Positions 18,183 through 20,461 of a stretch of DNA of 64,000 nucleotides are shown in pieces. The stretch lies in the NCBI GenBank assembly GCA_011174825.1, contig DUEZ01000006.1, positions 1 through 64,000 on the forward strand, in the 5' to 3' direction. The notes beneath the pieces are model-generated. The model saw only the letters and a list, made by a program, of their open reading frames with translations. It was not told the origin of the DNA and did not search any database. This DNA is from Anaerolineae bacterium (GTDB taxonomy: Bacteria > Chloroflexota > Anaerolineae > Anaerolineales > E44-bin32). Position 1 is the stretch's first letter. Each line of letters begins with the position of its first letter. The position numbers were made by a program, and so were the translations under genes.

Positions 18183-20024
18183 TTACTCCACCGTCACACT
18201 TTTCGCCAGATTGCGTGGTTGGTCAACGTCCGCGCCGCGTATCACGGCAATGTGATAGGCCAACAATTGTAGGGGAATGGTCGTCGTCACAGGACTCAAC
18301 AGCCAAGGTGTTTCCGGCACCCAGAGGATATGATCCGCAAGCGAGGGAATAAGCTCATCTCCGTCGGTAGCGAGCGCAACGACAATCCCTCCGCGTGCCT
18401 TGGTCTGTTCGATCTGGGCGAGCATCTTCTCATACCAGGGATCTCGTGGGCAAATTGCGATCACGGGCATCTCCTCATCAATGAGCGCAATGGGCCCATG
18501 TTTCATCTCTCCAGCCGGGTAAGCTTCAGCATGAATGTAAGAGATTTCCTTCAGCTTCAAAGCCCCTTCATAGGCGATGGGCATATTGATCCCTCTTCCG
18601 AGGTAGAGGCAGTGAGCGACGTCTTTCAATGCCCAGCCGATCTTCTCAACCTGATCTGCTCGATCCAAACATTGCCCCACCAAATCTGGCACTAGCCTTA
18701 GGTCGAGAGCCAGTTCCCTTCTCCGCTGCGTGTTCAGGATTCCCCTCAAGTCACCGAGCAAGATTGCCAGCATGTAGAGATCGATCAAGGGCGCGGTGAA
18801 CGCCTTGCTCGATGCCACACTGATCTCCGGACCGGCGTGCATACTAATGTATCCGTCAGCCATACGCATCGCCTGTGATCCGATCACATTCACAATGCTC
18901 CAAAGTGTGGCTCCGCGATTTCGGGCTTCGTTCATCGCCGCTAATGTATCTGCGGTCTCACCCGATTGACTGATGGCCAATACAACCGTTCGATCGTTCA
19001 CCAATGGCTCTCGGTAGCGAAACTCAGAAGCGATGTCCACCTCAACAGGGAGCCGCGCGATACGCTCGATGAGGATCTTCCCGACCATGGCCGCGTGGGC
19101 CGCCGTACCGCAAGCGGTGATCACGATCCGCTCGATTCGACCAGCTAGATCCTGCGTAAGATTGAGATTCGGGAGACGGACCTCCCCAGTCTCAAAATCC
19201 ACCCGTCCGCCGATCGTATCAGTTGATGAGCGAACCTGCTCCGAGATTTCCTTCAGCATGAAATGCTTGTACTCCCCTTTCTCAGCCGAGACCGGGTCCC
19301 AAGGTACGGATTGAATGTCTAGATTTACGAGTTCCCCCTCCATCGATTTCACTTGAAAACCGCTTTGGGTGACGATCGCGATTTGTCCCGATTCGAGGAA
19401 AGCCATCCGGCGGGTATGCTCGAGGATGGCGGGGATATCGGAGGCGATGAACATCTCCCCCTCCCCCAAGCCGACGACCACACCCCCCGCGTTCCCGATA
19501 CGTGCGGCGACGATTTTGTCCGGTTCACGAAGGCTGAGCAGTACGATACCGTGCGCACCTTTCAGATGTGCGATGGCCCTACGAGCCGCTTCTGCCAGGT
19601 CGTGTCCCATTGCGAGGAATCGCTCCACCAAATGCACAATGATCTCCGTATCGGTGTCCGAATTAAAACGTACCCCCTCGGCCTCCATTTCTTCTCTCAA
19701 ATTAAGGAAGTTCTCCACGATGCCATTATGGACGATCACAACTTCGCCTGAAGCGCCGAGGTGCGGATGGGCATTACGGGCGCTTGGCTCACCATGGGTC
19801 GCCCAGCGGGTGTGCCCGATACCAATTTGCCCTTGGACCGGATCCTGAAGGAGGAGATCGCCTAGCCGCTCTAGTTTACCGGCGTCACGACGGACTTCGA
19901 TCACACCATCTTGGATGATGGCCAGTCCAGCCGAATCATATCCGCGATACTCAAGGCGTTTGAGTCCTTCATAGATGATCGGTGTCGCGTCTCGGTCACC
20001 GACGTAACCGACGATACCACACAT
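18183..20024 (-). CDS. glmS: Glutamine-fructose-6-phosphate aminotransferase (isomerizing)
   Basis: The enzyme makes glucosamine-6-phosphate from fructose-6-phosphate and glutamine, the first step to UDP-GlcNAc for peptidoglycan and surface glycans. The start at 20024 gives MCGIVGYVG, whose Cys becomes the N-terminal nucleophile after Met removal. GGGAGGG precedes it. The 613-residue protein has a class II amidotransferase domain (RLEYRGYDSAG, WATHG) to about residue 240, then two SIS isomerase domains, and ends PRNLAKSVTVE, the conserved GlmS tail. The long leader contains a glmS ribozyme, so expression should fall when glucosamine-6-phosphate accumulates. Confidence 0.97.
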   Translation of the reverse strand: MCGIVGYVGDRDATPIIYEGLKRLEYRGYDSAGLAIIQDGVIEVRRDAGKLERLGDLLLQDPVQGQIGIGHTRWATHGEPSARNAHPHLGASGEVVIVHNGIVENFLNLREEMEAEGVRFNSDTDTEIIVHLVERFLAMGHDLAEAARRAIAHLKGAHGIVLLSLREPDKIVAARIGNAGGVVVGLGEGEMFIASDIPAILEHTRRMAFLESGQIAIVTQSGFQVKSMEGELVNLDIQSVPWDPVSAEKGEYKHFMLKEISEQVRSSTDTIGGRVDFETGEVRLPNLNLTQDLAGRIERIVITACGTAAHAAMVGKILIERIARLPVEVDIASEFRYREPLVNDRTVVLAISQSGETADTLAAMNEARNRGATLWSIVNVIGSQAMRMADGYISMHAGPEISVASSKAFTAPLIDLYMLAILLGDLRGILNTQRRRELALDLRLVPDLVGQCLDRADQVEKIGWALKDVAHCLYLGRGINMPIAYEGALKLKEISYIHAEAYPAGEMKHGPIALIDEEMPVIAICPRDPWYEKMLAQIEQTKARGGIVVALATDGDELIPSLADHILWVPETPWLLSPVTTTIPLQLLAYHIAVIRGADVDQPRNLAKSVTVE

Positions 20025-20053: not shown

Positions 20054-20282
20054 GATGATCGCCACTCCCAACAGTTTTGTCCACGCTGTTACCAACATGG
20101 TATTACCTGTAGGATTTAATGGAGGGGAAGTTTCGGGCCGTGGCACGCCCGGAGGGCATCCGCTGATCTCTCGATTTTCCCGGTGTGACGGTTGGGAGCC
20201 GTCAGCATTATCCGGTTGACCCCACCTCGCAGTAGGGAACCCTCGTCCTCGTCACCCCGATGATCTCGGGGCCTTGCGCTGA
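20054..20282 (-). ncRNA. glmS ribozyme (glucosamine-6-phosphate-activated self-cleaving RNA)
   Basis: Reading the minus strand upstream of glmS, the expected elements occur in order. These are the cleavage site A|GCGC (between 20280 and 20279), a P1 hairpin CCCCGA/TCGGGG, the core strand TGACGAGGACGAGGGTT, ATCGAGA, GCGGATGCCCTCC (pairing GAGGG with CCCTC as P2), a P3 hairpin CGGGC/GCCCG (20134-20151) and a 3' segment GTGGACAAAA. About 60 extra bases, able to form a TGACGG/CCGTCA hairpin, lie between GAGGGTT and ATCGAGA. Position and sequence fit the family well; the insertion is unusual. Confidence 0.85.
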
Positions 20283-20342
20283 TCCTCCCCAATACCTCTC
20301 GTGATGGTTACCCGGTCTACCTCCTGATCATGTGATAAGACC

Positions 20343-20348: not shown

Positions 20349-20393
20349 TTCTAAAAGTCCGCTGAAAAGACTAGCTTGAATTAGACACAAGTA

Positions 20394-20461
20394 TCAAGTC
20401 GCAAGCTTCAAGCTGCAAGCTTCAAGCCTCATGCTGTAGTCGTAGGCTTTAGCCTGCGCAG
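20394..20461. repeat. Short tandem repeat followed by a partial dispersed repeat
   Basis: GCAAGCTTCAAGCT is repeated head to tail at 20401-20414 and 20415-20428 with one difference. GTAGTCGTAGGCTTTAGCCTGCG at 20436-20458 then matches the left half of the 54-bp dispersed repeat at 242-295. The rest of 20349-20583 shows nothing recognisable. Confidence 0.6.

Follow-up and report, generated by a model that had tools for sequence, protein, structure and literature searches.

The glmS leader in this Anaerolineae contig raises two questions: whether it encodes a genuine glmS ribozyme and, if so, what some 60 additional nucleotides are doing inside its core. An initial annotation of the window (the whole 64,000-nucleotide stretch of DNA analysed here) had proposed such an element on the minus strand, had suggested a scan with Rfam RF00234 that allowed insertions, and had treated both the extension and its occurrence outside the Firmicutes as unusual. 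With a probability of roughly 0.83, we believe that the element is a self-cleaving glmS riboswitch belonging to a subfamily centred on the Chloroflexota, and that its conserved accessory domain likely braces the double pseudoknot. The reading draws on sequence, covariation, gene context and distribution, from which we infer cleavage, ligand and the bracing role.

The ribozyme in the glmS leader

When the window was searched with all 4227 Rfam families, the full RF00234 model (positions 1-167) matched the minus strand at 20291-20057 with an E-value of 2.9e-6, accommodating the insertion by leaving 69 nucleotides unmodelled in the joint that runs from P2 to the second P2.1 strand. The score, 41.4 bits against a cut-off of 37, is only modestly above threshold; a covariance model termed R1, built without the window sequence, matched the same element with an E-value of 3.2e-18. 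The ribozyme sits in the 5' leader directly upstream of glmS (18183-20024, minus strand, ATG at 20024; 613 amino acids; TIGR01135, 763 bits), and the assignment of a glmS ribozyme to a Chloroflexota-type genome is thus borne out. RF00234 matches nowhere else in the window's genome. A promoter scan of the ribozyme leader returned nothing above chance, and short direct repeats (GAAGCTTGCAGCTTGAAGCTTGCGACTTG) lie just upstream of this leader, at 20388-20430.

All of the motifs quoted in the initial annotation were found on the minus strand in the order given there. The cleavage strand GCGCA occupies 20279-20275, with C4 at 20276, and the predicted cleavage site, between A(-1) at 20280 and G1 at 20279 as originally placed, fits both the motif and the RF00234 alignment. 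The P1 hairpin, GCCCCGA-GAUCA-UCGGGGU, follows at 20254-20272, as indicated by the RF00234 alignment and folding, and the P2 5' strand GAGGG (20240-20244) pairs with CCCUC at 20156-20152. In the family alignment, 99.7% of P2 cells and 78.1% of P1 cells are paired, with double changes in both. The P3/P4 peripheral domain, with a GUAA tetraloop and GUGGACAAA, was located at 20057-20150 by the RF00234 alignment.

In the published core, P2.2 consists of C2-G56, G3-C55, C4-G54 and C5-G53 with residue 6 bulged, G26 makes a triple with G7-C52, and P2.1 pairs C28, G29 and A30 with U43, C44 and G45, the P2.1 strand residues forming part of the cofactor pocket (PMC7125110). We assigned these residue numbers to the window sequence ourselves. 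On this numbering, GACGAGG (20247-20253) contains G26 at 20253 and the first P2.1 strand, C28 to A30, at 20251-20249, and AUCGA (20171-20175) therefore holds the second P2.1 strand, U43 to G45 at 20174-20172, on the side of the ligand pocket. CAGCGG (20160-20165), assigned by RF00234 and the family alignment, spans C52 to G57 and provides the 3' strand of P2.2. The A|GCGC cleavage strand, the GCGG of P2.2 and the CGA/UCG pairing of P2.1 are all found in the window and are invariant in 169 relatives.

The window RNA thus shares the cleavage strand, P1, P2, P2.1, P2.2, the P3/P4 domain with its GNRA loop and the position upstream of glmS with the RF00234 glmS ribozymes of B. subtilis and T. tengcongensis, whereas the two-hairpin domain that it carries between P2 and P2.1 is lacking from the RF00234 consensus. 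Such ribozymes have been described as regulating glmS in response to glucosamine-6-phosphate (GlcN6P) (PMC9971707). In the window RNA, plentiful GlcN6P would bind a preformed pocket built by P2.1 and P2.2 and act as the acid when the RNA is cleaved between A20280 and G20279; destruction of the glmS mRNA would follow. That the element is instead a relic which has lost cleavage is highly improbable: a modest score and an insert of 62 nucleotides in the core might be expected of a relic, but all catalytic and pocket positions are intact, none of P1 to P4 is missing and more than 100 genera conserve the type.

A two-hairpin domain between P2 and P2.1

The extension in the P2/P2.1 joint, estimated at about 60 nucleotides in the initial annotation, is exactly 62 nucleotides long (20237-20176, minus strand), and sequence, fold and family alignment agree in dividing it into two hairpins and two linkers. 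The first hairpin (20220-20237) has seven base pairs, CCCUACU/GGUGGGG, and a GCGA tetraloop; it is followed by the linker UCAA (20216-20219; NYAA in the family). The second (20180-20215) comprises an outer stem, CCGG/CCGG, and an inner stem, UGACGG/CCGUCA, in which 20204-20199 pair with 20191-20186, and the linker GAAA (20176-20179; GAAM in the family) completes the insert, directly adjoining AUCGA on the 5' side of the second P2.1 strand. Both hairpins are seen in the fold and in family pairing. The annotation had noticed the TGACGG/CCGTCA hairpin, which is real, but had missed the more conserved first hairpin at 20237-20220 and the conserved linkers.

The folding energy of the insert, -24.5 kcal/mol (z = -2.0), is only mildly unusual and is weak evidence by itself, so that the case for its structure comes from covariation and from the match to R1. 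Across 67 aligned cores, 98.5% of cells in the first hairpin are paired and all seven pairs show double changes; for the outer five pairs of the second hairpin the figure is 95.5%, again with double changes at every pair. Covariation was 0.799, compared with 0.248 in shuffled alignments and at most 0.208 when the pairing partners were slid.

The long form follows the pattern GGUU-[first hairpin, 7 bp, usually with a GNRA loop]-NYAA-[second hairpin, variable]-GAAA-AUCGA. Among 126 unique inserts, the first hairpin has seven base pairs in 106 and a GCGA or GCAA loop in 81, about 117 have a linker ending in YAA, and the second hairpin ranges from 8 to 90 nucleotides; the conservation of the GAAA side is overstated in this count, since it was partly required by the parsing rule. 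The same linker columns are conserved in both MAFFT alignments, A1 and A2, of the parsed loci. In a few members the GNRA loop of the first hairpin is replaced by UCCG, a triloop or other loops, and strict tetraloop docking is therefore unlikely to apply to all members. A UAA/GAN motif was considered for the linkers and rejected, as the papers gave it no support and the flanking pair is absent.

What might such a domain do? It lies at the joint into the pocket-lining 3' strand of P2.1, where one hairpin is fixed at seven base pairs and capped by a GNRA-like loop, the other varies, and the NYAA and GAAA linkers are conserved, and its most likely job would be to brace the double pseudoknot from the insert side through the linkers, possibly aided by loop docking. 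A neutral expansion, in which hairpins drifted into a tolerant joint and have no role beyond not blocking folding, would accord with the 8-90 nucleotide range of the second hairpin and with the non-conserved variable insertions that riboswitches often have (PMC2258182). We nevertheless judge it unlikely, given that the first hairpin keeps its seven base pairs and GNRA-like loop, that the insert is retained in 337 of 400 genomes, and that the unpaired linkers, which neutral inserts would not keep, are conserved across families. It is more doubtful still that the insert is a second sensor, for another metabolite, an RNA or a protein, feeding the ribozyme as part of a two-input switch. The insert does adjoin the strand that lines the pocket and folds by itself, and the family would also control nitrogen genes; against this, conservation is confined to the linkers and the geometry of the first hairpin, the sequence and size of the second hairpin are not conserved as an aptamer needs, and the Rfam scan matched no aptamer family inside the insert.

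Extra stems within the core may have a parallel: McCown, Roth and Breaker reportedly described them in 2011 in Deinococcus-Thermus glmS ribozymes. Those variants and the window RNA would be alike in having extra stems within the catalytic core. A match of ours on a Deinococcus plasmid was to 16S rRNA, and RF00234 was absent from that plasmid.

Distribution of the insert-bearing form

Neither the ribozyme nor its extension is exceptional in the phylum. RF00234 matched 125 of 400 sampled Chloroflexota genomes, so that glmS ribozymes are not uncommon there. In the window's order, R1, which represents the insert-bearing form, matched 337 of 400 genomes and, counted by genus, 115 of 130; the supposed oddity is instead the norm in this order. 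Two forms of the locus exist in the phylum, a short one (e.g. GGCUUAUCGA) and the long, insert-bearing one, the latter also present in Chloroflexia-type families. A scan of named genomes used a general pattern in which the two hairpins were not assumed; the true ribozymes that it recovered were nearly confined to Anaerolineae and Chloroflexia (Roseiflexus, Oscillochloris, Chloroflexaceae), and almost every one shared the long-form architecture. Its matches outside the Chloroflexota (Alphaproteobacteria, Mycobacterium and others) were put down to chance as, with the exception of L162, they failed the cleavage-strand and P2 checks. At four loci (L156, L165, L171 and L181) the P1 hairpin has grown to about 100 nucleotides and is internally repetitive and inverted-repeat-like.

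Beyond the Chloroflexota, R1 matched 143 of 249 Bacillota genomes, all below 60 bits. From these we fetched ten loci among the best and twenty chosen for length; the insert was absent from all 28 that were readable, and their extra length was due to long P1 hairpins. In Actinomycetota, 29 of 246 genomes were matched, and the insert is present in the best four matches, which score about 90 bits and come from genomes of 1.0 to 1.4 Mb. A different extension, in the loop after AUCGA at residues 47-50, was seen in one Chloroflexota locus (L023) and in L353, L360, L362 and L366 of Actinomycetota. On a GlmS tree of 71 rows, only 10 of them insert-less and one of these on a suspiciously long branch, the insert label needs two changes compared with a mean of 9.6 after shuffling. 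The insert is common in the window's order and absent from the 28 readable Bacillota loci, which makes it a clade-specific addition to an established class of ribozyme. A widespread subfamily with a domain beside the ligand pocket provides a natural experiment on how peripheral elements influence the core of a ribozyme.

Copies upstream of nitrogen-assimilation genes

To our knowledge, glmS ribozymes have generally been presented as almost uniform, serving a single gene and a single sugar, and McCown and colleagues reportedly found them in 2011 to be linked almost exclusively to glmS. The window's genome has a glmS-linked copy only. Many relatives carry two or three copies, and those before nitrogen genes are more surprising than the window element. 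Among the de-duplicated loci that we read, glmS is the downstream gene of 168 copies, glnA of 43, a glutamate-synthase-like gene of 10 and amtB of one. Example downstream genes were confirmed as a type I glutamate-ammonia ligase (TIGR00653) and an ammonium transporter (TIGR00836); for Glu_synthase (PF01645), L110 scored 342 bits and the L284 type only 24.7 against a cut-off of 20.4. Within the window's own family, a second copy occurs in 12 of the 24 genomes that were matched (eight before glnA, two before glutamate-synthase-like genes, one before amtB and one unassigned), giving 11 genomes with nitrogen-gene-linked copies. The small-genome Actinomycetota lineage (L347-L350; 1.0-1.4 Mb) shows the order glmM, insert-bearing ribozyme, glnA.

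Nearly all glnA-linked copies differ from the canonical ones in P2.2. C4 is lost in 39 of the 43 glnA-linked copies and in none verified among about 165 linked to glmS; it was called at 163 of 166 glmS-linked and 4 of 43 glnA-linked sites (Fisher 4e-34, for sequences that are not independent by descent), a count that does not depend on how the canonical set was defined. The glmS-linked exceptions, L056, L057 and L121, proved to be site-calling errors or unresolvable sites. All 169 canonical copies have C at residue 4, which was part of the definition of the set; G occupies position 26 in 168, and the 5/53 combination is A/A in 119 and C/G in 46, with four exceptions. By comparison, 36 of 49 variant copies have R4, C5 and A53, 12 have U4 and A5, and one has A4 and A5; G26 is replaced in 20, and all the other core positions compared, those of P2.1, the pocket and the catalytic strand included, are unchanged except for residue -1 in two. 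Although the R4-C5-A53 combination breaks the canonical 5-53 rule, it would allow a C5-G54 pair with residue 4 bulged, and the U4-A5 variants would allow a U4-G54 wobble.

Altered-residue-4 copies before glnA occur in Anaerolineae including the window's family (L038, L040, L050, L053, L094, L098, L120, L123, L126, L129, L169, L172, L187, L198, L205, L259, L270 and others). Before glutamate-synthase-like genes, the core is canonical in L110, L228, L291, L295, L306 and L323 and variant in L263, L282 and L284, an extra small gene intervening in L282. The variant before the ammonium transporter gene (L281, 486-700, plus strand) has U at -1 and at 4. Two further variants, L275 and L334, have no recognisable same-strand gene downstream.

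Variant riboswitch classes are usually recognised by changes at conserved nucleotides that go together with another target gene. It is conceivable, if doubtful, that the insert-bearing copies before glnA, glutamate-synthase-like genes and amtB form a second self-cleaving class that controls nitrogen assimilation through some other ligand or cofactor, such as glutamine or a further amine reporting on nitrogen status; this reading draws on the shifted P2.2 bulge or the replacement of C4-G54 by U-G, and on the frequent change of G26. We rather favour GlcN6P as the ligand of the variants, because the pocket is intact and four glnA-linked copies are canonical. These RNAs would then probably be retuned in activity, with GlcN6P a proxy for glutamine sufficiency. 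The pocket and catalytic nucleotides are unchanged in all 49 variants, C4 is retained in the four glnA-linked copies, the Actinomycetota RNA sits between glmM and glnA, and shifted P2.2 bulges were inferred to do less harm than mismatches (PMC7125110). Conversely, the single change C4G was described as highly detrimental to the T. tengcongensis core (PMC7125110), and changes at C4 and G26 go with the gene that the RNA precedes, which tempers our preference for an unchanged ligand.

Full-text searches of the open literature found no paper on a natural glmS ribozyme before glutamine synthetase, and a glmS-type RNA with an altered core before nitrogen-assimilation genes appears to be new. The Glutamine-I/II riboswitches control glutamine synthetase in cyanobacteria (PMC9971707) and so serve the same target, glnA, but are unrelated to the glnA-linked copies, which Rfam assigns to glmS. 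By spreading to glnA, to glutamate-synthase-like genes and to amtB while its catalytic pseudoknot changed in step, the ribozyme would define a nitrogen-assimilation regulon governed by a self-cleaving RNA. Rfam scans of L053 and L270 matched RF00234 and a 6S RNA only, and no glutamine riboswitch family; the 6S RNA match lies in L053 (298-473, plus strand), immediately upstream of the glnA-linked ribozyme.
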